From the IMG/VR virus record IMGVR_UViG_3300024308_000188, positions 124,001-188,000 of that record: 64,000 nucleotides of DNA. The stretch is one strand, 5' to 3'. The position numbers were made by a program, and so were the translations under genes. The notes under the pieces were generated by a model. It did no database searches and was not told the DNA's origin. It saw nothing but the letters and a program-made list of their open reading frames with translations. The number at the start of each line of letters is the position of its first letter. Within the stretch, counting starts at the first letter, position 1. Positions 1-56,075 of the stretch are shown here, one piece after another. The stretch is from a virus.

Positions 1-1
1 T

Positions 2-127
2 GATCTGCTTACCGGAATTCCAGCTGGTGAAACTAAAATGGAATCCATTGAACATCTTGTAACAGCAGTTAAGATAGTCACAACTGGCGAAGCCCGTATA
101 GTTCTGTCTATCAAAGACAGTATATAA
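2..127 (+). CDS. 3' end of a gene cut by the window edge, unknown product
   Basis: An open frame runs from the window edge to a TAA at 125-127 and encodes the last 41 residues of a protein. The visible part (DLLTGIPAGETKMESIEHLV at its start, ending IVLSIKDSI) looks like folded alpha/beta sequence and has no low-complexity bias. The start lies upstream of the window, so neither length nor family can be judged. It is followed by about 400 bases without a convincing gene. Confidence 0.6.
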   Translation, partial: DLLTGIPAGETKMESIEHLVTAVKIVTTGEARIVLSIKDSI

Positions 128-500
128 ATTTCCCTGACCTGCCAAACTTTGCATGTATTTGTTTGGCAACTAAACTCAGGAACTGGATTGTGTCTGCGCT
201 ACATCCTTTCCGATAGTTTGTGTAAGAATTTCTTACGGTCTTTTTTATTTCGGCACTCTAGCGTCCTCTAAGTGCTGTTTCTGGTCGCAAGACTGGTTTT
301 ACAAAACAAGCTTATTCGTTTGCATCGACATGCGAGATACGTGAGTAGCTGTCATGAGAAATTCTTTGTTTTGTATTAGCGCCACCGAATCTGATTGGCG
401 ATCTGATCACGTTTATCAAAGCATATAAGATAGATGGTTATAGTGTAATGCTTTCCACTAGAAGCTGTTTGTTGAAATTGCTTTTCAGTGACTTTCCATG

Positions 501-524
<24 letters not shown>
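128..524 (+). ncRNA. non-coding stretch rich in perfect inverted repeats; possible structured RNA
   Basis: No ORF here looks like a gene, but short perfect helices follow one another: 133-137/176-180 enclosing 140-147/161-168 (8 bp); 253-257/271-275; 281-286/291-296, closed by a GCAA tetraloop and followed by TTTT; 301-309/366-374 (9 bp); 380-384/396-400; 418-424/448-454 (7 bp) enclosing 425-428/438-441; and 496-503/512-519 (8 bp, CCATGTTT with AAACATGG). This density is unusual for a phage intergenic region and resembles the stretch at 1166-2231. It may be one structured RNA, several small RNAs, or the leader of the tRNA transcript. The strand is assumed from the neighbours; no promoter could be assigned. 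Confidence 0.35.
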
Positions 525-613
<89 letters not shown>

Positions 614-618
614 CAAAA

Positions 619-702
619 ATGCTTCCAGATTATTCAGAATTAAAACCCTATCTGCTTTCTCTTGTTTTAGTTTTTGTTATTTTGATTGCGCTTAGTTTTT
701 GA
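619..702 (+). CDS. tiny single-span membrane protein (27 aa), tentative
   Basis: A short frame begins ATG at 619, ten bases after an AGGT, and encodes 27 residues: a short polar head (MLPDYSELKP) followed by one continuous hydrophobic segment (YLLSLVLVFVILIALSF) that would span a membrane. It starts 20 bases after the tRNA. A Shine-Dalgarno-like site and a clean transmembrane helix favour a real peptide, but at this length chance cannot be excluded. Function unknown. Confidence 0.4.
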   Translation: MLPDYSELKPYLLSLVLVFVILIALSF

Positions 703-773
703 TTCCAACACTAAACTTATTTCAGTTAGCTAAGTAACTTAAGATAGTCCTGCACTTAGCCGCGTAGGAGACT

Positions 774-851
774 ATGAAAAGTTTGTGGTTTAAGTGTATC
801 ACTGAACAGGAATCTTTATTTGGTAATCATTTATGGAACCAGAGTTTTTAA
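774..851 (+). CDS. small ORF (25 aa) overlapping the next gene
   Basis: ATG at 774 sits six bases after a strong AGGAG and opens a 25-codon frame (MKSLWFKCITEQ...) ending at TAA 849-851. It overlaps the following 110-aa gene, which has a poor ribosome site of its own, by 19 bases in another frame. The arrangement suggests a leader peptide that couples translation into the downstream gene. No homology can be recognised at this length. Confidence 0.5.
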   Translation: MKSLWFKCITEQESLFGNHLWNQSF

Positions 852-1165
852 ATTGCCCTGAATTTTATTCTAAACATTTTCTTGAACTTAACAATAAAGA
901 AAAATTCTGCGCTTTTTATTGGAGTCAGATGCGAAGATTTACAACGCTTAAGCAAGCTTTAACTTCTTTACCTGCAAATAGAATACCTTACAGATGCGCT
1001 TTAATTGTTTTGCGCGAAAAGAAATGTCGTTGGCCTGAAGTAGAATTCTTGATAGCCCAAACTTCTTACTCAAAAGGTTTGTATTTGAATTACATGAAAA
1101 TTTTAGTTGAACGAAACCAATTGACTACAGAAGAATTTGAAGATATTTTGAATATGTTAAAGTAG
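833..1165 (+). CDS. hypothetical protein, 110 aa
   Basis: Encodes a small protein of mixed charge rich in aromatic residues (FYSKHF, FCAFYWSQMRRF), probably helical, with three cysteines and no recognisable motif. Its ATG lacks a good Shine-Dalgarno site but lies inside the preceding 25-codon ORF, so it may be translated by coupling. The stop codon TAG at 1163-1165 touches the first base-paired segment of the structured non-coding region that follows. Not recognised as any family. Confidence 0.75.
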   Translation: MEPEFLNCPEFYSKHFLELNNKEKFCAFYWSQMRRFTTLKQALTSLPANRIPYRCALIVLREKKCRWPEVEFLIAQTSYSKGLYLNYMKILVERNQLTTEEFEDILNMLK

Positions 1166-2070
1166 ATTCCACTTTAGATCTGCAAGCAGAGACATTTTTT
1201 GTCTTAGGTCAGAACAGCCGTTGCTTGTGCGCTGGTATGCAGTGCAAAGTTTATTATGTCAAGCTAGATCCCTTGACTAGACTTTATACGAAGTAGCCTA
1301 ACTTCGAGATTTTTAGTGGAATCTCCTTTAACATCTTTGTCTGTTCGATCTCCTTTTAGGTACGTGGGGTTCCAAGCAAGTTGTGTCGAACAGGCATTCT
1401 AATTTTTCGCGGCATTAGTTTAAGCAGTCCTTGAAAAAGTTTTGTGTGAGGCGGATTCTTCCTTGCCGCTGTGCTGATGAACTTATAGAGGAAAAACAAC
1501 GAGACAATACTTGCGTCCCTCCAAGTCGGTTAGTATTGTGAGTATCTCACGCACTCATTCGTTATTTCAAAACATGAACGTGCTGACGCGAACTCCCGCT
1601 GAGAGTACAAACCTTAATCTAGCATTAAGCAATGTTTAGACTTTGAATTGTTGTAGGTTTTTGGACTTTTTTCCTTGCTCCAATTCTTGGGTCGTGTATT
1701 TGAAATGCCGCTATACAGGAATATTCATGGTAACTATATTCATCTTTTTTCTAACGATTTGTATTAACCGCGAAAACAATTTACGGCGGTCATCCGTAGA
1801 AAGTTTTCGTATAACAACTAACATTCAACGCATAACAGATTACTTTGACCTTAAAGGTTGGTTAACTGTTCGCGTTGTACAAGTTGAGCATAAACCTGCT
1901 CACTATAAGCACTCGTTGATATGATGCTTGGCGATTTGTTATTTACATGACTCCTTATCTTGTTGAGAGGGTAAGAACAAATCTCGGTAGCCGTAATACC
2001 GATATTAAATAATCCAGCAGGTGGGTTTGTTGTTCGCATTTTGGACAAGGAAACCAAACCCACCGAATCA

Positions 2071-2177
2071 AATAGATTTTTGTTCTGACGGTAAGATTCA
2101 ACTTTCGCACTGGCTTTGTTCGAGCACCAGTACATATTACAGTCTGTTGCGTTTTGCCGTCAGAACAAAAATCTATT
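2071..2177. repeat. perfect 21-bp inverted repeat with a 65-nt loop
   Basis: The arms at 2071-2091 and 2157-2177 are exact reverse complements (first arm begins AATAGATTTTTG; second ends AAAAATCTATT). The 65-nt loop contains a second hairpin, ACTGG...CCAGT. It is the longest perfect helix in the window and forms the 3' part of the structured region, just ahead of the terminator. It could close a domain of a large RNA or be an RNase III target. Confidence 0.85.
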
Positions 2178-2183
2178 AAACAC

Positions 2184-2209
2184 AAGGCCACTTTGCTGTG
2201 GCCTTTTTT
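2184..2209 (+). terminator. intrinsic terminator upstream of tmk
   Basis: AAGGCCAC (2184-2191), a six-base loop, GTGGCCTT (2198-2205) and a run of T residues to 2209 form a classic Rho-independent terminator. It ends the hairpin-rich non-coding region and separates it from tmk, whose start lies 23 bases downstream. Confidence 0.85.
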
Positions 2210-2231
2210 GATCTTAACTGGGGAAATAACT

Positions 2232-2867
2232 ATGCAAGGTAAATTTTTTGTACTTGAAGGATTGGATGGTGTTGGTAAAAGTGAACAAGCAAAAATATTG
2301 ACGGCAAATCTTACTAAAATATTTGGCCCGACTATTCAAGTACGCGAACCTGGAGGAACTCCGATTGCAGAACAGATACGTACTGTGGTAAAAGGTAATG
2401 CTAATAACTCTGATGAAAAGTTTACTGTAGAAGCAGAAACTCTTTTAATGTTTGCTGCCAGAGCGCAATTGGTTCCTTACGTAAGATCACAACTTGCCGC
2501 TGGCGTTAATGTTGTTGCAGATCGTTGGGATTTTTCAACAAGAGCTTTTCAGTGTGGAGGTAAAGGTTTTCCACTTGAGCACTTTTATAACCTGCGTAAA
2601 ATACTGAGTTTAGATACCTTGGTTCCTGATATGATTTTTTACGGAACTAACTCAGGCAAAGTAAAAGAGCCTGAAGATCGAATTGAGTTTGAGTATTTTG
2701 AGTTCAGAGAAAAGATTGGTGCCGAATATGACCGCATGTTTGCTCTTAGCAATATGGATCATACTGTTGCGAAAAGTTTAGTCACTTTCGACATAAATGG
2801 AGTTAGTATTGAAGATACTGCGGAAATGATTTTAATGTGTGCGCGTAAAGCTTTTGGTGATGTATGA
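2232..2867 (+). CDS. tmk: thymidylate kinase (dTMP kinase)
   Basis: Phosphorylates dTMP to dTDP with ATP, feeding dTTP synthesis for phage replication. The 211-aa product has the family motifs in order: P-loop EGLDGVGKS (residues 9-17), REPGGT (38-43) for dTMP binding, and a DRW motif near residue 97 in a context like the usual DR(Y/W)xxSxxAYQ. Length is normal for the family. I chose ATG 2232 because it follows GGGG and begins right at the P-loop strand; a longer frame from 2154 would run back through the terminator. The next gene overlaps by ATGA at 2864, so the two are probably co-translated. Confidence 0.92.
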   Translation: MQGKFFVLEGLDGVGKSEQAKILTANLTKIFGPTIQVREPGGTPIAEQIRTVVKGNANNSDEKFTVEAETLLMFAARAQLVPYVRSQLAAGVNVVADRWDFSTRAFQCGGKGFPLEHFYNLRKILSLDTLVPDMIFYGTNSGKVKEPEDRIEFEYFEFREKIGAEYDRMFALSNMDHTVAKSLVTFDINGVSIEDTAEMILMCARKAFGDV

Positions 2868-34887: not shown

Positions 34888-36870
34888 ATGGCTAAAGCAA
34901 AAGCAAAATCTGCAAATACTTATGATGAAGATAGTATTCAGGTTCACAAAGGTTTAGCTGGTGTTAGATTAAACGCTGGCATGTACATGGGTGAGCTTGG
35001 CGATTCAATGATGTATCGCATGGGCAAAGAAGCTGTTGAAAACAGCCGCGATGAATACGAAGCTGGACGCAACAACGCAATCTATGTAGCCTTTAATAAC
35101 AAAACAAGTGAATACGTTTTTGCCGACTGCGCTCAAGGTATTCCTGTTGGAATGAAAACAGTTGAAGGTAAAAAAGTAAGCGCATTAACAGTAATTCTTA
35201 CTGAACTTCATGCTGGCGGAAAATTTGATGTAAAAGCTTATCAGACTTCAGGTGGTACGCACGGTGTTGGTATTTCTGCGGTCAATGCTTTATCAAAAGA
35301 ACTTGAGGTCTGGACTTGTCGTGAAGATCAGTGGTACTACCAAAGTTTTTCATGCGGAAAAGAAACCAGTCCTGTTAAAAAGGTTCCAGACACTTTCCTC
35401 AAGAAAAAGTTTGGTTATCTTTTGCCGCTCAAGAAAAAGTTTAAGCGACTTGGCACTATCATTCGCTTGGTTCCAGATCAAAGCGTGATAAGCGTTGATG
35501 CTAGTCGTACCTCAAAACTTAAAACATATACCCAAGCTGTTTTGGAAGAACAAAAGTTTGCTGATTATTTAAAGTTCATGAGTACCATGAATAGCAAGCT
35601 TTATATCGGTTTCCTAAACCTTGAAACAAACAAAGAACAGGTTTTCTACAATGATAAAGGTTTGGGTGCTGTAGTCAGTTCAATAATTTCTGATCATGAT
35701 TTAGAGCCTTTGGGTAAGCCATTCGAGTTCGATGGCTCAAGCCTGAAAGTTGCTATTCAATGGTCTAATCACTATGACAGTGATCTGTTCAGAAGTTATG
35801 TAAATAGTAGTCCAACAATAGATCATGGTACGCATGTAAATGGTTTCCGTGCGGCCATGTCAAAAGCTTTGAAAAACTATCTGCCCAAAAAAGCAGGTAA
35901 GTTTAAGCCAGAAGATCTTTATGTTGGCGCAGTTGCTATTATCAACTGGAAAATGAACAGCGCTCAATTTAGTGGTCAGGTAAAAGATAAACTGGTATCT
36001 AAAATCGATAACGAAGTTTGTGATTTACTGACTCAACCATTAACCGATTTTTTTGCAAAGAACAAAACATTAGCCAAGCAGATTATAAAACGCGCAAGTG
36101 ATGTTGCGGCTTCCCGTGAAGATCTTGCTAAAACAATGAAAGGCATGAGCGAAGTTAAAAAAGGTGGAAGTAAGCTGCCGATAAAACTTTATGAAGCTCC
36201 AGATTGTAAACCGCATGAGCGTGAGCTGTATTTTGTCGAAGGCGATTCGGCTGGCGGTACTGCCAAAAATGCTCGTGGCTTTAATCAGGAAGTTTTAAAA
36301 CTTGGCGGTAAAATTCCAAACGCATTGAATGTTAGTCTAAGTGCCTTACTTTCAAATGACCGCATTCAAGATATGCTGAACAGTTTGGGAGTTGACATAA
36401 AAAGTTTGGATGTTAAAGCTGATAATCCTACATTCAGTACAAAGAATCTGCGAGTTGCTGTTGCAATGTTGCTTGCTGATGCTGATGCTGATGGATCTCA
36501 CATTAACGTACTTATCACCGCATTTTTCTATAAACTTATGCCCGACTTTATTAAAGAAGGTCGTTTGTTTGTTGTTGACGCTCAATTGTACAACGCACTC
36601 GTTAATGGTGTGCATTACAGCGGAAACACAATGGAAGAGTGTTTAGCTAAGTTACCAAAAAATGCTCCGAAGGGAAGTGTGTTCCGTGCAAAAGGTTGGG
36701 GAGAGACAGATGCAGATTTACTTGAAGCCATAGCATTTGATATTAACAACAGAAAGTTGATTCAAATTGAATATGGCAAAGTTCAAGAAGATCTTGCGTT
36801 TTACAGATCAGTTGTAGGTGAAGATGCCTCTGCCAGACGGCAATTGTTGGGGTTAAGTTCCAACGATTAA
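34888..36870 (+). CDS. type IIA DNA topoisomerase, ATPase subunit (GyrB/ParE/T4 gp39-like)
   Basis: The 660-aa subunit binds ATP and, with the subunit at 37806, passes one duplex through another. GHKL ATPase motifs: EAVENSRDE with the Mg-binding Asn at 52, and GGTHGVGIS (122-130) for the ATP lid. The TOPRIM domain has EGDSAGG (about 451-457) and DADADGSH (about 530-538), the metal-binding acidic residues. Good ribosome site (AAGGAAAG). Length matches the shorter GyrB/ParE type. Phages use such enzymes to relieve supercoils during replication or to resolve progeny DNA. Whether it supercoils (gyrase) or only relaxes and decatenates cannot be told from the sequence. Confidence 0.95.
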   Translation: MAKAKAKSANTYDEDSIQVHKGLAGVRLNAGMYMGELGDSMMYRMGKEAVENSRDEYEAGRNNAIYVAFNNKTSEYVFADCAQGIPVGMKTVEGKKVSALTVILTELHAGGKFDVKAYQTSGGTHGVGISAVNALSKELEVWTCREDQWYYQSFSCGKETSPVKKVPDTFLKKKFGYLLPLKKKFKRLGTIIRLVPDQSVISVDASRTSKLKTYTQAVLEEQKFADYLKFMSTMNSKLYIGFLNLETNKEQVFYNDKGLGAVVSSIISDHDLEPLGKPFEFDGSSLKVAIQWSNHYDSDLFRSYVNSSPTIDHGTHVNGFRAAMSKALKNYLPKKAGKFKPEDLYVGAVAIINWKMNSAQFSGQVKDKLVSKIDNEVCDLLTQPLTDFFAKNKTLAKQIIKRASDVAASREDLAKTMKGMSEVKKGGSKLPIKLYEAPDCKPHERELYFVEGDSAGGTAKNARGFNQEVLKLGGKIPNALNVSLSALLSNDRIQDMLNSLGVDIKSLDVKADNPTFSTKNLRVAVAMLLADADADGSHINVLITAFFYKLMPDFIKEGRLFVVDAQLYNALVNGVHYSGNTMEECLAKLPKNAPKGSVFRAKGWGETDADLLEAIAFDINNRKLIQIEYGKVQEDLAFYRSVVGEDASARRQLLGLSSND

Positions 36871-37805: not shown

Positions 37806-39449
37806 ATGAAATCAAAAAAGCCGCCAGCAAAAACAAAGAAAGTTTCTAAGACTGAGTTGGGAGATATTAAACAACATAAAAAGTCGAAGAAAAATTTACC
37901 CGCAGTTGTTGAACCTAATCAATTCAAACTGCCTTCCACTGTACTGATGAAAACTATTGTCAAAGAAGATTTGGCAAACTTTGCAAAAAGAAATTTAACT
38001 CATTACGGTGAATACGTTGTACAAGATCGTGCTGTTCCAGAATTCCGTGATGGATTAAAGCCAGTTCACCGCCACATTATTTATGCAATGTCTCAGCTGA
38101 ATTTATTCGGTTCTGACTTTAAAAAGTGTGCGCGTATTGTTGGTGATACAATTGGTAAGTATCATCCTCACGGTGACTCTGCAACGTATGGTGCATTAGT
38201 TACGTTAGCCAATACAATTCCAAAACTTATTCAAGGTCGAGGAAATTTTGGCAGTCCACTCGATATGGCGGCAGCTCAGCGTTATACTGAAGCGCGTTTG
38301 AGTGATTACAGCAAACTTTTTCTTTTGGATAAAGGTTATCTTGAAGTTGTTCCGCGTATAAACAACTTTGATGACAGCGAAAAAATTCCGTTGTATTTGC
38401 CTTCGCTTCTTCCAACAATGCTGTTGATTGGAAATGCTGGTGGTATTGCCTACGGTGTTCGTGCTTGTAATCCTGCTTTTGAAATTGAAGGCGTTACAAA
38501 ACTTATTCAAATTGTATTGGAAAAAGGCGATTTGAAATCTTCTGATTGTGTAAAGCATTTAAAAATTCAAGCTCCTTTTGGATCTGATTGCGTTAGCACA
38601 CCAGAAGAACTTGCAAGCTTTATTGAAACAGGTAGAGCAAAGGCAATAAAATATTGTCCGAAAGTTCAAGTTGATTACAAAAATAAAATCGTTGAAATTG
38701 TTTCTTATTCTCCCGGTTTCGCATCTGAAGATGGCGTTGCTAAAAAACGTGATAAGATTTTAGAATTACCCGAAGTTAGTCGTTGGGTAAGTGACTGTGG
38801 TGATAAACGTCCGAACGCTGGCCCTTATGGTGCATATTATTATGTTGTACCAAAACGTGGAATGTCAGATGACGGCCTTTTTGATTTAGCTGAAAAAATT
38901 CGTAAGATGTTGACTGGCAGTGAGTTCTATAACTTAGGACTTACAATAAACAACGTCGATGGAACTGCTAAATTCCTTTACTGTAACTTTGCGACCTATA
39001 TTAAAAACTGGGTTCGCTATCGTGTGGAATTGGAAAAGCGTTATCTGGAAAACATTATTGCAAAACGCGAACGCGATTTGTGGGAATACAACGTATTGTC
39101 CTACGCTGTTATCAACAAGAATAAAATCTTGGAAGTAATGAAAAAAGCTTTGGACAAAGATGATCCAGATACTTACACTGCAAAAACATTGAAGATTCCT
39201 CAAGATGAAGCTACTTTCATTTTGGAATTGAAAATGCGTAGGCTGGCAAAACTTGAACTGAAAGCGCTACAGGACAAGATTAAAATTGCTACTGCCGACA
39301 TTAAAGGATGGAAACGCGATCACAAAGATCCTAATCCTCGTATCGCTTCTTCCTTGACCGAATCTGTAAATAAGTATGTACGGATGGTAAATGCTTCAAT
39401 CGCAGACACTAAAAAGTCTGAGAAGAAGCGCAAGAAAAAAGCAGACTGA
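37806..39449 (+). CDS. type IIA DNA topoisomerase, cleavage subunit (GyrA/ParC/T4 gp52-like)
   Basis: The 547-aa product carries the DNA cleavage-religation core: [20 protein letters not shown] near residues 70-90, [16 protein letters not shown] (about 117-132), and the catalytic tyrosine at about 160 in [10 protein letters not shown]. It lacks the C-terminal beta-pinwheel of full GyrA, so it is more like a T4-type or minimal ParC subunit. A basic N-terminal tail ([13 protein letters not shown]) resembles the H1-like tails elsewhere in the window. It has its own promoter (copy 9), separate from the ATPase subunit gene. Confidence 0.94.
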
Positions 39450-45480: not shown

Positions 45481-46290
45481 ATGTTTAGTTCACCAGAAAA
45501 TAGTCCTTATGGAGTGTTGCCAGAACATACAATACCTTTGGTTGAAATAGAAGAATCTTTGTGTGAACCTTATATTCATGGTCAAACAGTAAAAGTCAAA
45601 AAGCTTCCAAGGTTTCAACCAGTATGTCACATTATAATTCGCCCACCTGAAGCCAAACAAGTTGTTGTAGAAGAAAGTTTCGAGCAAGATTTTATTCAAC
45701 AAAAATACACAACTGTAGATCTCAGCAAACTTTCTCGCTACAAAAGAACAGCCGAACAAAAAGAAGTCATGCAGGAAGTTGACATCGAAGTTGATATTTC
45801 TCCACCTGACAATCTGATACGTTTAAAAACTGCCCATATAAAAAACTTTCCTAAAATACTTCAAACTAAATCAGGTTTGATAAAAGATGTTTTTATAAAA
45901 GAATATCTTCCTCAAATTTTAGGTATTGATGAAGCTTCTGCTTATGTAGAGGCATTCGCAAAAGACGGACTCGGCTTATCTGAATTTGAGATAAGCGTTG
46001 ATATGATTCCATATATTCATAACGCGATCAAGACTGATTTCGTTAGCCTTATCCTAAAACAATTGACTAACCTAAGTGAAGAAACCCGACAAGCTTATAT
46101 TATAGGTTATGTAACTGATGCTCTTGCATCTGCGCGTTATCTAGCTAAAAATAATCTTGCGGCTCAACAGCACAGACGTTACCAAGAAAGACTGGACAAT
46201 CCTGCCGGATATGTTGCTGGCGTTGGAATGAAAAAATCTAAGGTAATTCGTGATGGTAAAGCAGATAAAGAAAAAGAAGCCAATAGGTAA
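45481..46290 (+). CDS. hypothetical protein, 269 aa, upstream of terminase
   Basis: ATG 45481 follows GGGGAAA; an upstream GTG at 45451 lies in the hairpin and is rejected. Proline-rich N-terminal half with paired acidic and basic segments, and a helical C-terminal half (FAKDGLGLSEFEISVDMIPY). Basic end. It overlaps the terminase gene by 38 bases. Position suggests a packaging role, possibly a small terminase, but no DNA-binding motif is visible. Confidence 0.83.
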   Translation: MFSSPENSPYGVLPEHTIPLVEIEESLCEPYIHGQTVKVKKLPRFQPVCHIIIRPPEAKQVVVEESFEQDFIQQKYTTVDLSKLSRYKRTAEQKEVMQEVDIEVDISPPDNLIRLKTAHIKNFPKILQTKSGLIKDVFIKEYLPQILGIDEASAYVEAFAKDGLGLSEFEISVDMIPYIHNAIKTDFVSLILKQLTNLSEETRQAYIIGYVTDALASARYLAKNNLAAQQHRRYQERLDNPAGYVAGVGMKKSKVIRDGKADKEKEANR

Positions 46291-49201
46291 AGCCAAAAAA
46301 CCTAGTGCAATTAAACCATTAGATGATTTATTCAATTTGTTGGGTGAAGATGACGATGAAAGCGTCACAATAGTACATGACGACGATGACGACGATGATG
46401 GCCATCATTTTAAGCATGATTTAGAAGATGGCCATGAAGTCTTAGATCTCGAACAACTTATATATGATGAACTGGATAATGCTAGGCCGATCTCTAAAGA
46501 TTTGCGTATAGACGACAGTTCTATGCCGATAGCAAAAAACTTCTTACAGTTTGCTAATGATGAAAGTTTTCTTAGTTCCACGCCTTATCTCGAACAGGCC
46601 ATAATAGGTATCAAACTTTTTGCTGAGTATTGTCCAAGACCTGAATGTTCTGATTTAAAATGGTTTTCTGATGATGGACATTCGGCAGATGAACCATTAG
46701 CAACACTTTCCAGAAAAGTGTCTCTTTTACATCATGGTGTTTGTCCAAAGTGTGGCGCACGTAAATCCGAACTTATTGCAAGTGGTGAACTAAATTTCTA
46801 TAACGAACTTGTAGTTGTTGCTGGACAGCGTTGTGTTACTGGCGATACTCATATTTTCACTGGAAAAGGTATTGAAAGAATTGGAGATCTTGTTCCGCGC
46901 AATGCTAAACAAGGTTACAATGATTTTAAATATCCTGTATTCAACGGTGAAAAGCTTGAGACAACAAAAGAATTTTATATAACGAAAGCCGAACACGTTT
47001 ACACACTACAGCTGGATAATGGATCTACTTTAAGTGGAACTCTTGACCATCCTGTTCGTGTTGAAAAGTTTGGTTATCGTGCTTTGCACCAAATAAAAGC
47101 TGGTGAGCAAGTTGTTGTACAAACCGGACAAAATTGTTGGGGAAATTTAAACTGCCCTTATACAGTTGATGAATTACGCTCTATAGGATCTGATATTACA
47201 AATCGACTAGACTTGTTGGTTGATACAGTAGCTGGTAAAGGCTTACATCCAGATCTTTTAAAATACAGTATGAAAAATTGTCGAGAATTTCTACGTGGAG
47301 TATTCGACAACAACACAACGCAATATCCTGTTGCTTACCACCAATTAGTAAAAGATGTTTATGCCTTGCTGCTAAACATTGGCATTCTGCCTACAATTCA
47401 AAATACCTCAGAAACAATCTCCATTTCTATCTCAAACGAAAACCGAAATATATTATTTGATGATCACAGATCCGTCAAAAGAAATCGGCATCTTTTATCC
47501 GTTGTTAGCTGCGGAGTTACAGATAGAACTGAAGTCATGTACGATGTTACAATGCCTATCACACAACATTTTATTACCAATGGCATTGATTCACATAACA
47601 GCGGCAAGTCTGCGGTTGTTACCATGATAAGTGCTTATATAGTGCATTTGTTTTTGATGTGTGGTAAGCCCACTGAACTTTTCAATATTCGTAATAACGA
47701 AATATTGCATGGAACTTTCCTTGCGCTTACACTTGGACAAGCAACACAAAACTTATGGGAACCTTTTCTCGGTTACATAAATAATAGTCCTTGGTTTAAA
47801 GCTTATCACTTAATGCTTCGTCGTTATGAAAAGAAATACGGAGAAGTTCTACTAAAGCTAAAAGATACCTTTATTGATTATCGTCATAGAAACCTTAAAC
47901 TTTATCCGGCAACTCCAGACAAACGTGTACTTCGTGGTCGTACTCGTATACTCGGAGCCCTGGATGAACTTGGGTGGTTTGATTCTAATCGTGATAGTAA
48001 AAAAGTTAAGGATAACGCGCACGAAGTTTATAAAGCAATGTCAAACAGTTTGGCTACTGCCAGACAAAGTGAAAAGCGTTTAGTCGAACAAGGCTTTGAT
48101 CAATTCATGTTAACCGGATATATGTTGAACGTAAGTTCTCCAAATAATATCCGTGACAAAATCATGGAACTTTATAAACAAAGTTTGGGCAGTCGTAAGA
48201 TGCTTGGCCTTCATCGTCCAACATGGAAAATGAATCCACATATTCCATTTGATGGTGAATTGATACGTGAAGAATATCGTAAAGATCCTATTGGAGCTGC
48301 ACGAGACTTTGGAGCCGAGCCAAGTTTATCAAGTAATCCGTTTATGAGTAATCACAGATTACTTGAAGAGACTGTTAGAACTAGCGGTAAAAATTGGGTT
48401 AAATATGCGCTCAAAACTATTCGTATCAGTCGAGACGAAAAGCACAGAACCGTTGAGTTACTTAACGTCAAACAAAATGGCTCTAGGAGTGTTATGGCTA
48501 TTGATGCTGGATTCTCTAACAACTGTTTTGCCATAGTCTGTGGATCTTTGCATGATGGTATTCCTCACATGGATTGCCTTTTAGAAATAAATGCTCTTCC
48601 TGGTATTCCAATAAGTTTCACTTCTGTTTTTGCAGATGCTGTACTTCCACTTATTGAACAGCGCAATTGCAGTATTCTTTTGGCAGACCGTTGGAATAGT
48701 ATCAAGTTATTGCAAGATGCTCAAGCCACCTATGATAGTTTAAAAGTGTCAGGTCAATATAGCTTACGCTACAACGATATGTACGAAGTTAAAACAGCTA
48801 TTGAAATGGGTCAATTCAAAATACCAAACATTGAAGATCCTAGCATTAAAAATATCCTTGCTAGTAACCTCGATGATTATCCAGCGTGTTTTGAAGGTAG
48901 ACCTGTACATCATTTGCTGCTGCAACTTGCAACCGTTGTTGATGTTGGTAAGAAATCTGTTGAAAAAGGAAATGGATTCACCGATGATCTTTGGAGAGCA
49001 GCCGCGCTTTGTTATTTTGGTTTAACTAATCCAGATTATCAAGAGCATTTGGTTGGTGAGGTTGAAAGTAAAAAAGTTCAACCACCGTTAGCCCTGTTGA
49101 AGAAACTCACGGGCGGAATGAATGCGCTTACTGTTACAACCGGAAACAAAACGTATTCGGGTTCGACAAAATTCATCGGTGTAAAACGAACAGGAAAATA
49201 A
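46253..49201 (+). CDS. terminase large subunit interrupted by an intein
   Basis: The packaging motor ATPase-nuclease. The 982-aa precursor contains a 256-aa intein; the mature protein is 726 aa. Before the intein an N-terminal four-Cys zinc motif (CPRPECSD...CPKCGA) precedes VVVAGQR; after it SGKS completes Walker A. Walker B is ILGALDELGWF (about 568-578). The RNase H-like nuclease domain shows IDAGFSNN (about 748-756), LLADRWNS and FTDDLWRAA (about 909). ATG 46253 follows AAGG; GTG 46250 is an alternative. Two other genes in the window (49244 and 62122) look like partial relatives of its ATPase region. Confidence 0.93.
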   Translation: MVKQIKKKKPIGKAKKPSAIKPLDDLFNLLGEDDDESVTIVHDDDDDDDGHHFKHDLEDGHEVLDLEQLIYDELDNARPISKDLRIDDSSMPIAKNFLQFANDESFLSSTPYLEQAIIGIKLFAEYCPRPECSDLKWFSDDGHSADEPLATLSRKVSLLHHGVCPKCGARKSELIASGELNFYNELVVVAGQRCVTGDTHIFTGKGIERIGDLVPRNAKQGYNDFKYPVFNGEKLETTKEFYITKAEHVYTLQLDNGSTLSGTLDHPVRVEKFGYRALHQIKAGEQVVVQTGQNCWGNLNCPYTVDELRSIGSDITNRLDLLVDTVAGKGLHPDLLKYSMKNCREFLRGVFDNNTTQYPVAYHQLVKDVYALLLNIGILPTIQNTSETISISISNENRNILFDDHRSVKRNRHLLSVVSCGVTDRTEVMYDVTMPITQHFITNGIDSHNSGKSAVVTMISAYIVHLFLMCGKPTELFNIRNNEILHGTFLALTLGQATQNLWEPFLGYINNSPWFKAYHLMLRRYEKKYGEVLLKLKDTFIDYRHRNLKLYPATPDKRVLRGRTRILGALDELGWFDSNRDSKKVKDNAHEVYKAMSNSLATARQSEKRLVEQGFDQFMLTGYMLNVSSPNNIRDKIMELYKQSLGSRKMLGLHRPTWKMNPHIPFDGELIREEYRKDPIGAARDFGAEPSLSSNPFMSNHRLLEETVRTSGKNWVKYALKTIRISRDEKHRTVELLNVKQNGSRSVMAIDAGFSNNCFAIVCGSLHDGIPHMDCLLEINALPGIPISFTSVFADAVLPLIEQRNCSILLADRWNSIKLLQDAQATYDSLKVSGQYSLRYNDMYEVKTAIEMGQFKIPNIEDPSIKNILASNLDDYPACFEGRPVHHLLLQLATVVDVGKKSVEKGNGFTDDLWRAAALCYFGLTNPDYQEHLVGEVESKKVQPPLALLKKLTGGMNALTVTTGNKTYSGSTKFIGVKRTGK
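46832..47599 (+). mobile_element. 256-aa intein inserted in the terminase Walker A motif
   Basis: The intein starts at Cys (CVTGDTHIFTGKG, block A) and ends at His-Asn (ITNGIDSHN, blocks F/G) followed by Ser+1, all canonical for splicing. Block B is SGTLDHP (TxxH). Excision rejoins GQR with SGKS to restore Walker A, so the motor is inactive until splicing. The middle keeps one LAGLIDADG-like block, FLRGVFDNN, followed by VYALLLNIGI, but the catalytic acidic residue of the motif is replaced by Asn. This looks like a degenerate homing endonuclease remnant. Splicing may act as a control point for packaging. Confidence 0.92.
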
Positions 49202-50266: not shown

Positions 50267-52201
50267 ATGTTCAGTTTTAAGAAAACAATTCCTTCCACTT
50301 CTCGAAGTCGAGATCAAGAAGGGTTAGGTACGTCATCTAAAGATCGTGTTAGTGTTCGCAAAGCTGCTGAGGCAGAACAAAAGAAAACACGATCCGAACA
50401 ACAAGGCTTCAGATCTGAAAGTAACGCTTCAGCTGGCGCACGTATGAGTAGTTTAGACGTAAACTTAGATACCTCTTTATTGTTAGAAGGTATGGACAGT
50501 GATTTAAAAGATCAGCAACTGTTCAGAGTTTATCGTGATATGTACTGGCACGATCCTGTTTGTGGATCTTGTGCAGATTTATACTCAACACTTCCTTTTT
50601 CTGAATTTAGTTTGGCCGGAGCTTCGGACAAATATTTAGATCAATACAGAGAAGTAGTTGAACTCTTGAATCTGCGTACAGCAATGCCTCGTATTAGTAT
50701 TGACCATCAAGTTACTGGCGCATTCACTGCAACTATTTTGTACAACAGCCAGAAAAAGCAATTCATTGATTTGATGTGTCACAAATATGAAAACCTTACC
50801 GTACACTCTTTGCCATTATTTGGTCAAGATCCAATAATGTACTTGCAGCTTGATGCTGATATGAAACGTACTTTGGGTTTGCCTTCAAAACGCATAGAGC
50901 AAATACGTCAAAGTCTTGGTATAGAATTTTTTAACAAACTACTCAACGATCAAATTGAATTAGATCCAGTAGGTACTTTGTATGTTCCACGTAAAACTTT
51001 CTCTTATGGTGAAGGTGTTAGTTACTTTAAACGAGTGCTTCCACTTTGGTTGATTGAGAAAAATTTATATCGCGGAACACTGATTGAAAGTGGACGTAGA
51101 CAACGAGCCATACTTCACTTAATGTTAGGTGAAGAAGGTTGGGAACCTACACCACAAGATTACGAACAAGCAACTGATTTATTTCTTGATGCTGATGCTG
51201 ATCCTATAGGTGCTGTTGTCGCAACACGTTTAGGTATTAGCGTTAGCGAGTTAAGACCAGGTGGTGACTTTTGGAAAGTTACTGACATTTGGGATCAAAC
51301 AACTCCAGCAAAAATGAGAGCGCTTGGAATAAGTGAAGCTTTCTTGAGTGGTGACGCAAGTTATCAAACAATGGAAGGCTCAATGACTGTTTTCACTGAA
51401 ACAATGAGAGCATATCGTGATATGCAAACTCGTTGCATTTTCTACGATAAAGTATTTCCGTTAGTTTCTATGATGCACGGTAATACAATTCGTAAAGGTA
51501 AGATTGTTAAACGTGAAGGCTTGATGTCTGGAACTACAGAAGAACGCTTACGTTTAATGCAAGATGGTTCAAAACTTTTAATTCCAAATGTACATTGGGC
51601 AAAAAGTTTAAAGCCTGAGCAAGATCAATCTTATATGGAAATTCTTGATCGTATGACTGCTGCTGGAATTCCAGTTCCAATACGAATGATGGCTGCTGCT
51701 GGTGGATTTAACTTGGATCAGCTGTTATTAAATCAAGATGAAGATTTTGCTATTCAACGTCAACTTCTTGATTACAAAAAACGTGTTGCCGATATGACCG
51801 CTAAATATGCTGCTGCCGAAGGCGGTGGCGCTGAAGGCGGTGGCGGAGGAATGGGATCTTTCAGTTCTTCAAGTTCTGATCGTTATTTCAATCCAGATCG
51901 TTATCTCGATAAAGTAACTGCACAGCCACGGGGATTCAGTAATATTCTTGGAGGTGCTTCGCAAAATCTTTTACGTCACGATTTTGGTGAAGGAAGCGAG
52001 TTATATACTCACGATCATAGCGGTAAGAAAAAGCATGTATTTAATCAGACTGCGAAAAACAAGATGATCAATGCCAAAATTACAAAAGCCTTAGTTGCTA
52101 TGAGTAAGAGTGGTAATGCACCATTGTTAACGCACGAAACAACGACAAATTTAAAGCCAACGCAAAGAGAAATGCAACGGCTTCTTGGAGTAGTTAAATG
52201 A
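50267..52201 (+). CDS. portal protein
   Basis: The 644-aa product forms the dodecameric ring at the capsid vertex through which DNA enters. It follows the terminase, as portals usually do, and has portal-like features: a disordered charged N-terminus, YRDMYWHDPVCGSCADLYST near residue 90-105, helical stem segments, and a Gly/Ser-rich region with a charged C-terminus (EGGGAEGGGGG about 525-540). Starts after GGAGAATACATA. Overlaps the next gene by ATGA. Confidence 0.82.
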   Translation: MFSFKKTIPSTSRSRDQEGLGTSSKDRVSVRKAAEAEQKKTRSEQQGFRSESNASAGARMSSLDVNLDTSLLLEGMDSDLKDQQLFRVYRDMYWHDPVCGSCADLYSTLPFSEFSLAGASDKYLDQYREVVELLNLRTAMPRISIDHQVTGAFTATILYNSQKKQFIDLMCHKYENLTVHSLPLFGQDPIMYLQLDADMKRTLGLPSKRIEQIRQSLGIEFFNKLLNDQIELDPVGTLYVPRKTFSYGEGVSYFKRVLPLWLIEKNLYRGTLIESGRRQRAILHLMLGEEGWEPTPQDYEQATDLFLDADADPIGAVVATRLGISVSELRPGGDFWKVTDIWDQTTPAKMRALGISEAFLSGDASYQTMEGSMTVFTETMRAYRDMQTRCIFYDKVFPLVSMMHGNTIRKGKIVKREGLMSGTTEERLRLMQDGSKLLIPNVHWAKSLKPEQDQSYMEILDRMTAAGIPVPIRMMAAAGGFNLDQLLLNQDEDFAIQRQLLDYKKRVADMTAKYAAAEGGGAEGGGGGMGSFSSSSSDRYFNPDRYLDKVTAQPRGFSNILGGASQNLLRHDFGEGSELYTHDHSGKKKHVFNQTAKNKMINAKITKALVAMSKSGNAPLLTHETTTNLKPTQREMQRLLGVVK

Positions 52202-52983
52202 AGTTAGTCCGTGACCTTTTTTATAAAGGAACTGCGGCAATATCTGACTGGCTTGTATTCCACCGATTCATTCGTCAGCCATTATCTTTCTTTGAGGATA
52301 ATCTGAGGAAAGGAATTTTGTCTGAAGTAAAAGCAATTGAAGATATTCTCTTTGCTTTTACTTCAGAACATTCCGCTTGGTTTACAGACAGACACTTCAA
52401 TCAATACGGTGCATTTATGTGCCGTGATTTGATAAACAAAGAACTTTTCGATATAAATGATTATGTAGCTACGGATCTATATGATGCTGTGGCGCGGTCA
52501 TCCATCAAAAGTAATTTTTCAGTTGAAGTGCAAAAGATGGTTGCTGAGCTTTCTAAGAAATTTTCAGAAGATCCTCGTTTCCAAAACACAACAACTGAAA
52601 CTTATTTGAATTTATTTCACAGAACGCTACCTTTATTGTTTTTGAGATTTTTTGCACCAAAAGATTTGGTGAATTTCTCTAACAATTTCTTATATGCTAT
52701 CGCAGCATTAGTAGCGTTTGATCGTAAAGGCTACTCAGAGTTTACCTCACCTGAAGCCATAAAAACAAAAACCTTTCTTGAGGATTTTTTGTTTGAAGTT
52801 GTCAACGATAGCTTTCACATATACAGCTACAATTTTTATATGGTTGTGCGTCGTATGTTTCCTGAAAGAATGTCTAACAGAATGGCAACCGTGCAATTCA
52901 AATTCAAATCCCTTCAAAGTGATAATTACATATATGCGCCAAAACGCATGGTTAGTGATGTTGCCCTGTTCAGGAGAAAATGA
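52198..52983 (+). CDS. hypothetical helical protein, 261 aa, downstream of portal
   Basis: Starts at the ATGA overlap with portal. Helical with repeated aromatic clusters (FHRFIRQPLSFFEDNL, YSYNFYMVVRRMFPERMS). Its place directly behind portal suggests a head or connector role, but no motif is recognised. Confidence 0.8.
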   Translation: MKLVRDLFYKGTAAISDWLVFHRFIRQPLSFFEDNLRKGILSEVKAIEDILFAFTSEHSAWFTDRHFNQYGAFMCRDLINKELFDINDYVATDLYDAVARSSIKSNFSVEVQKMVAELSKKFSEDPRFQNTTTETYLNLFHRTLPLLFLRFFAPKDLVNFSNNFLYAIAALVAFDRKGYSEFTSPEAIKTKTFLEDFLFEVVNDSFHIYSYNFYMVVRRMFPERMSNRMATVQFKFKSLQSDNYIYAPKRMVSDVALFRRK

Positions 52984-55110: not shown

Positions 55111-56075
55111 ATAAAATCAAACCTAATCCGGTTATAGATATTATTGACGGCCACAACTGGCTTAATCGAGCATATTACTCCAGTTTAAAGAACAAGGGAA
55201 TGACGTTAAAGGACGGAACACCTACCGGAGCAGCTAAAACTTTTTGCGTTATGCTAAATGCTCTTATTCGCAGAAGATTAGCGTCACGAGGTCAAGTTAT
55301 TTTAGCTGTTGTATTTGACCACAAAAAAGGTTCGGACAAGCGCAAGAAAATAATGCGCGATTTCATGGAAAAGCGTTTACGCGGAGAAGATGCTGCTAAA
55401 TTTCCAGAAAAATATTTAAGTGGTTATAAAGGTAATCGTTTTTCTGACGGTGACGATGCTAAAAGTATTGCACTTCGCCCACAATTAAAAATGATTATTG
55501 ATATTTTGACTGCGCGTGGAATTCACCCTATAACTTCTGTTCACGGTGAGGCCGACGATATTATAGGAAGCTTGTGTTTCCAACTAAAATGTCGTAAATA
55601 TATTTGGAGTCGTGACGGTGATTTCGCTCAGTTATTAAAACCTGATACAAGGTTACGTTTACCAAAACAAGACAACAGTGAAGAACAAGATATTACATAT
55701 CAAAGTTGTCTTGAAAAGTATGGCGTTATTCCTCCAATGTTTGTGGATCTTTTGGCACTGACAGGAGATCAGAGCGATAACATTCCAGGCATTCCAGGCG
55801 TCGGAGATAAAACAGCTATCGAATTGTTGATGCAGTATGAAGATCTTGATTCTATATTCCAAGCAGAACATAAAGGCGCTTTGGGAAAAAAACTCAAAGA
55901 TCCATTTTATCAAGATCTTTGTTTTATGTGCAGAGATTTAGTTGAGATCAAGAAAGACTTAAAGGTAGATACACGATTATCGACCTATCTGTTGGAACCT
56001 TGGTCTAAAAAAGTCGAACGAAAAGTTCGTTCTGTAGAAAAACAGTTTGAGTTCAAAGAAACATTCAACTGTTAG
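55107..56075 (+). CDS. 5'-3' exonuclease / flap endonuclease (FEN, Pol I N-terminal type)
   Basis: The 322-aa product resembles phage FEN enzymes that remove RNA primers and flaps. Metal-binding acids are in IDIIDGH (about 10-16), HGEADDIIGSL (about 146-156) and SRDGDFAQLL (about 167-176); the helix-hairpin-helix is GDQSDNIPGIPGVGDKTA (about 220-237). Slightly longer than the T5/T7-type core. ATGA overlap with the previous gene links it to the zinc-cluster protein. Confidence 0.92.
   Translation: MNKIKPNPVIDIIDGHNWLNRAYYSSLKNKGMTLKDGTPTGAAKTFCVMLNALIRRRLASRGQVILAVVFDHKKGSDKRKKIMRDFMEKRLRGEDAAKFPEKYLSGYKGNRFSDGDDAKSIALRPQLKMIIDILTARGIHPITSVHGEADDIIGSLCFQLKCRKYIWSRDGDFAQLLKPDTRLRLPKQDNSEEQDITYQSCLEKYGVIPPMFVDLLALTGDQSDNIPGIPGVGDKTAIELLMQYEDLDSIFQAEHKGALGKKLKDPFYQDLCFMCRDLVEIKKDLKVDTRLSTYLLEPWSKKVERKVRSVEKQFEFKETFNC

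Follow-up and report, generated by a model that had tools for sequence, protein, structure and literature searches.

Upstream of the thymidylate kinase gene tmk of a jumbo phage lies a large structured non-coding RNA (positions 1164-2211, + strand) which is probably best understood as a giant trans-acting scaffold presenting an antisense loop against a cold-shock (csp) mRNA of its host. That the region is a structured RNA is well supported by its predicted fold, its lack of ORFs and its positional homologues in two related phages (loci L056 and L057), and with these relatives it probably forms a new jumbo-phage class of large structured non-coding RNAs, 1.0-1.3 kb in size. Because its conserved tip is complementary to the 5' end of csp, a trans-acting antisense RNA is favoured over one that is purely structural.

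The stretch of DNA analysed here, referred to below as the window, comprises 64,000 nucleotides (positions 124001-188000 of a 214.5-kb virus record). The portal protein of this phage shares 55% identity with its Phage NCTB counterpart and about 48% with the portal proteins of Erwinia phages in Alexandravirus, and the source is therefore a jumbo phage. The sole tRNA found in the whole record, a tRNA-Gly (TCC) detected by ARAGORN and Rfam, lies at 525-599 (+ strand), which bears out the tRNA proximity pointed out in the initial annotation. It is flanked by ORF-poor, weakly structured stretches (121-524, z -1.8; 600-832, z -1.1) that might form a leader or belong to a longer precursor. Directly 5' of the RNA, a 110-aa ORF with no assigned function (833-1165, + strand) ends in a TAG stop overlapping the first helix of the RNA; relative to a 97%-identical phage, third codon positions account for 2 of its 3 differences. 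On the 3' side, tmk follows at 2232-2867 (+ strand; Pfam PF02223, E=1.4e-22).

Elsewhere in the window, a phage DNA gyrase B (34888-36870, Pfam match) and a gyrase A-like ORF (37806-39449) stand in the same gene order as in Phage NCTB. A 983-aa large terminase-like ORF (46250-49201) is split by an intein, whose match to Pfam Intein_splicing (E=1.4e-7) falls slightly under that model's cut-off, and a perfect 16-bp inverted repeat (52321-52367) sits within the ORF at 52198-52983. A stretch of 79 bp (55738-55816) shares 79% nucleotide identity with a polA-like 5'-3' exonuclease in a Rheinheimera-related MAG (L183). Two other long ORF-free stretches of the same genome were considered and rejected. 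The gap at 118.6-120 kb proved to be coding sequence divided by the end of a retrieved segment; by eye, this region (L133 18674-20000 and L134; genome 118674 onwards) is RecA/UvsX-like, apparently with an intein inserted in it (it reads ...FCMTGDTFIHSEKGMLTAFEYYQ...). The gap at 107.0-108.1 kb is low-complexity and dissimilar; it is an ORF-poor stretch (L133 7018-8108; genome 107018-108108) with several hairpins and long homopolymers (C7 A22), and may reflect a fault in the assembly.

The initial annotation had described the RNA region as lacking a convincing gene and rich in helices. Between 1166 and 2209 the largest ORFs, which lie on opposite strands, indeed reach only 93-94 aa, and the MEA fold contains 27 helices of at least 6 bp, including those already described, with one loop corrected. 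All features that follow are on the + strand. The 5' domain (1164-1324) is enclosed by a 10-bp stem (AGATTCCACT/AGTGGAATCT, 1164-1173/1315-1324), 8 bp of which are present in the predicted fold, around several hairpins. It is followed by a 12-bp hairpin with a GGGGUUCCAAGCAAG loop (1338-1396), a more weakly predicted central domain closed by a 7-bp helix (1409-1711) and a hairpin of 8 + 7 bp (1770-1810). In this last hairpin, stacked helices had been reported at 1771-1809 around a symmetric 4x4 internal loop; the helices stand, and the loop becomes 2x2 once G-U pairs are counted. The two-part stacked hairpin seen earlier at 1826-1877 also appears in the predicted fold, followed by the hairpin UGAGCA-UAAACC-UGCUCA (1885-1902), found in both fold and alignment, and by three further hairpins (1906-2002, made up of 1906-1930, 1933-1983 and 1984-2002). 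The 3' module comprises the hairpin H-a of 10 + 7 bp (2020-2064) and the long helix H-b (2071-2177), both seen in the predicted fold. H-b has 27 bp counting G-U and contains a perfect 21-bp helix (2071-2091/2157-2177). Among perfect inverted repeats with a span of at most 420 nt, this 21-bp helix is the longest of the whole window. An intrinsic terminator (2184-2211), with an 8-bp stem (2184-2205) and T6, follows here as in L056 and L057; this terminator and the perfect 21-bp helix had likewise been picked out initially.

The predicted MFE of the window RNA (-315.7, against -256.4 +/- 7.9 in dinucleotide shuffles; z=-7.5) is lower than expected, and is not decisive alone because one coding control reached z=-5.8. 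This strongly negative control could be taken to mean that there is no RNA function here, only AT-rich intergenic DNA folding by chance or an unrecognised coding sequence. The same view may draw on L005, the 97%-identical relative, which differs from the window at 11 positions of the RNA region, mostly in loops. Since the identical blocks run on through tmk, the near-zero divergence over part of the region probably reflects recent recombination and not constraint, and L005 was set aside as evidence of conservation.

More diverged relatives are informative in this respect, and the architecture that two of them conserve is decisive where folding energy is not. A search of related phages for homologous intergenic regions, as had been proposed initially, identified L056 (genome G002, portal 71% identical to that of the window phage) and L057 (G003, 62%). 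In both, tmk occurs in the same context and is preceded by tRNAs (tRNA-Met and tRNA-Gly in L056, tRNA-Met in L057) and by a stretch without convincing ORFs (1.3 kb and 1.0 kb, respectively), with MFE z values of -8.4 and -5.5 against dinucleotide shuffles. Counting the window together with L005, the RNA is thus borne by three lineages. Further relatives sought via tmk and portal added none, and a covariance model (R1) found no additional matches in 25 records. L076 and L077 were rejected as carriers, the gap before tmk being filled by small ORFs and a tRNA.

The three lineages share the same 3' order, namely H-a, a linker of 3-6 nt, H-b (25-27 bp), the terminator and tmk. Their helix sequences differ almost completely yet remain paired: in a hand-made register, which leans towards structure, 105 of 108 helix cells of H-a and H-b are standard pairs, and both sides have changed in 63 of 102 pairwise comparisons. 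Independently of that register, a covariance model derived solely from the window and L005 recovers L056 at the right place (E=1.7e-8) and misses L057 (5.1 bits), so that L057 is included on the strength of its synteny, its architecture and the motif it shares. Similarly, the window-L056 alignment scores above 200 of 200 shuffles, and the window-L057 alignment does not beat all 200. Outside the 3' module, L056 has a 12-bp equivalent of the 1338-1396 hairpin, with GGGGUUCCAGCUUGCAAG; a counterpart of 1826-1877 with a CGGCC/GGCCG closure immediately 5' of UACAAnUUG; and a version of 1885-1902 (UGCGCA-CAAGCC-UGCGCA) with one compensatory pair change. The central domain has possible counterparts at 7330-7602 in L056 and 6306-6661 in L057. 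The 5' domain varies by lineage, being a 27-bp helix domain in L056 and without counterpart in L057. The initial annotation had weighed conserved ORFs against compensatory changes in the helices; we find no conserved ORF, and helices that change on both sides. An architecture maintained under such divergent helix sequences, together with the covariance model match and the missing ORF, makes it highly improbable that the region is without RNA function.

Comparison with Rfam at the gathering threshold returned nothing but tRNAs for the window, L056 and L057. At relaxed E-values there was no match to GOLLD (E up to 10 in window positions 1-2400, up to 5 in L056 and L057), nor to ROOL and other large RNAs in any of the three. 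Of the initial proposal that the RNA recalls GOLLD and ROOL or forms a new class, the general likeness to such large non-coding RNAs can be retained, membership of either family cannot, and a new class is probable, given an architecture conserved through double-sided pair changes and lacking an Rfam match.

In all three lineages the RNA lies directly 5' of tmk, with the terminator shortly before the start codon, an arrangement which would suit a cis-acting leader or attenuator, that is, a 1-kb 5' UTR of tmk with a switchable terminator. However, most partners found upstream for the arms of the terminator pair no more strongly than its own hairpin (-12.2 versus -13.5 in the window; -15.2 versus -13.7 for the 5' arm in L056), and no consistent antiterminator emerges. 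Other relatives, moreover, carry tmk without the RNA, and a leader would leave the conserved antisense tip unexplained. We hold a role of this sort to be quite improbable.

That tip, the element ACUGGCUUUGUUCGAGC-ACC-AGUACAUAUUAC (2109-2140, + strand) at the end of H-b, is the sole sequence clearly common to the three lineages. It is described by the pattern GKCYWYGUUMG, 5-16 nt, GURCAUAUUAC, and is still recovered by MAFFT, whose alignment of the three 3' modules puts the helices out of register. In its first form, the pattern has a single occurrence per record in the four records with the RNA and is absent from 16 further records that include NCTB and an Alexandravirus, and the refined pattern is confined to the three lineages among 2.9 million IMG/VR contigs. 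Seven extra matches of a looser pattern in IMG/VR, every one within or antisense to ORFs, were rejected. In the predicted fold of each lineage, the element ranks among the 4-7% most open windows.

When the refined pattern was scanned over 85,000 bacterial and archaeal genomes (a 257-Gb collection), 15 matches were obtained. Ten are one element, antisense to the 5' end of a csp transcript, in Rheinheimera and close MAGs; the five outside this cluster, four of them within ORFs, all score as chance. The gene downstream of the matched leader encodes a CSD-family cold-shock protein. Fourteen distinct leaders keep both the promoter (TTGACC-17-(G/C)ATAAT, then GTAATATGTACTAGC 7 nt on) and an ATG at +81 to +83. 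Promoter spacing, from which +1 is deduced, places it at the end of the conserved block, with the G of GUAAUAUGUAC as the predicted first base. The leader is present in 21 of the 22 genomes of the genus Rheinheimera and, allowing 3 mismatches, in 3 of 90 sampled genomes of the family, all three from the Rheinheimera set.

Each of the phage RNAs is predicted to form 27-29 bp with csp mRNA +1 to +31, a span which excludes the ribosome-binding site near +70. Appending promoter DNA to the target extends the predicted pairing a few bases beyond +1, and the coincidence of the block boundary with +1 is thus suggestive only. Host leader variants (CGUGG, CACGG and UACGG) partly match the phage variants, the window tip pairing slightly better with CACGG and those of L056 and L057 with CGUGG. 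Against Rheinheimera, the conserved hairpin 1885-1902 has no consistent target site and the RNA as a whole gives chance matches only; a comparison of 20 kb of phage with 22 Rheinheimera genomes returned no spacer and no phage match.

In its size and ornate fold, its nearness to a tRNA and its occurrence in a phage, the RNA resembles GOLLD and ROOL (PMC12286853). An alternative reading is therefore a purely structural giant RNA that works like these two, an RNA-only multimer or cage in which the tip serves as a tertiary or quaternary contact and the csp match is coincidental. A single good chance match in 257 Gb is possible, and some good match is to be expected because the scan used a pattern fitted to three phages. 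Several controls address this concern. Firstly, predicted duplexes with csp +1 to +41 reach -43.2 (window), -37.5 (L056) and -42.5 (L057) kcal/mol, against about -13 to -17 kcal/mol (sd about 3) in shuffled controls. Secondly, among 99,990 windows covering 400 kb of R. texasensis on both strands, none surpasses the csp site with the three tips summed (-131.5), the next independent site scoring -104 (mean -53, sd 10.9); for single lineages it ranks 1, 4 and 2. Thirdly, random sequences already fitting the pattern average -87.8 (sd 11.6), and this conditional control, in which the five other genome matches score -57 to -97, gives P(<= -131.5)=0.0004 and P(<= -125)=0.0012, values that are not independent and that refer to a target window picked after the fact. 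With about five independent matches, roughly half a percent is left for chance, the location at an mRNA 5' end not counted. The controls partly lessen the worry over database selection without removing it, and coincidence is unlikely as an explanation of the csp match. The match far exceeds random pattern-fitting sequences (P about 0.0004-0.001), lies genus-wide at a promoter-proximal mRNA 5' end, and is preserved through wobbles where the lineages differ. These features weigh against a purely structural RNA, which we regard as possible but rather unlikely.

Viewed from the opposite strand, the element resembles the csp 5' end itself and, were that strand transcribed, might act as a decoy for a csp regulator. 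The terminator U-tract, the neighbouring genes and the folding energy favour the + strand, although the better folding of the + strand over the RNA region is matched by the same difference in one coding control. The + strand also out-pairs the opposite strand in 9 of 9 phage-leader combinations, because many of the differences between lineages, C to U or A to G, are tolerated as wobbles. We find a decoy scarcely credible.

Under the antisense reading that we prefer, the phages would infect Rheinheimera, and the RNA would be transcribed from the + strand and end at the terminator. H-b would act as a stalk that displays the antisense element as an open loop plus a single-stranded segment, from which it could meet the nascent csp 5' end and form a duplex. 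The most likely effect of this duplex would be to repress csp, by RNase III cleavage or by altering the structure of the leader, with the host's RNA-chaperone economy redirected as a result. As the pairing spans +1 to +31 and leaves the ribosome-binding site free, repression would have to operate via leader structure, RNase III or early transcription. The remaining scaffold may provide stability or multimerisation, as in GOLLD and ROOL. Activation of csp is conceivable as well, and precedents point both ways. During P1vir infection, cspA was the most down-regulated host gene and csp genes dropped strongly (PMC8201110); during phiR1-37 infection, csp genes rose (PMC4848604).

More broadly, we would give an even chance to the proposition that some of the giant phage RNAs with ornate folds work as antisense machines against the host. 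In such RNAs a fast-changing scaffold would carry one or more short elements adapted to the 5' ends of host mRNAs that are abundant (in this case Rheinheimera csp), so that a 1-kb RNA would conserve only the part fixed by its target. To our knowledge, giant phage RNAs in general have no assigned role. In the present case, sequence alone yields a concrete molecular target for a large phage RNA, one that can be tested. Should this target prove correct, at least one giant phage RNA would gain a function, the scant sequence conservation of such RNAs would have a reason, phage hosts would become predictable from phage RNAs, and there would be a link to reports of strong csp regulation in phage infection.

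Among known systems, the giant phage RNAs GOLLD and ROOL occur near tRNAs and form nanocages, and a recent structural paper describes no function for either (PMC12286853). The window RNA shares with GOLLD a phage or prophage origin near tRNAs, and with ROOL its large size, its ornate fold and a phage or prophage setting close to tRNA islands (PMC12286853). Whereas GOLLD forms a 14-mer nanocage and ROOL an ordered nanocage with conserved kissing loops, the window RNA is known here through its sequence and predicted fold. It differs from GOLLD in its conserved element antisense to a host-like mRNA, and from ROOL in its greater length (1.0-1.3 kb versus 659 nt for ROOL env-120), its different architecture and its lack of an Rfam match. 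The ~800-nt ORF-less transcript of ICP1 (gp139-gp140) and the lncRNAs of phage K are large, abundant and of unknown function (PMC7567579, PMC9241854); as large ORF-less phage RNAs they are comparable to the window RNA, in the case of phage K by description only. The gp139-gp140 gap of Vibrio phage ICP1 (L137 10098-11108) has a complex predicted fold without similarity to the window RNA, and neither the motif nor long perfect helices occur there; with no motif in common, the ICP1 RNA was rejected as a relative.

Smaller phage RNAs offer a parallel in the proposed mechanism. PreS of lambda is a trans-acting phage sRNA which targets the host dnaN mRNA (PMC12197685), and pairing with a host mRNA is the mode proposed for the window RNA. 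In contrast to the 50-550 nt given for sRNAs, the window RNA measures about 1 kb, and its 27-29-bp complementarity, directed at the extreme 5' end, is carried on the tip of a long stalk helix. The E. coli csp 5' untranslated region carries a cold box (PMC6719143), and in cspA leader regulation, as in the mode proposed here, the csp 5' untranslated region is the target; the differences are that a phage RNA is the proposed binder and that the Rheinheimera leader is short. If our reading is right, the window RNA resembles giant RNAs of the GOLLD and ROOL type in form and phage sRNAs in action.
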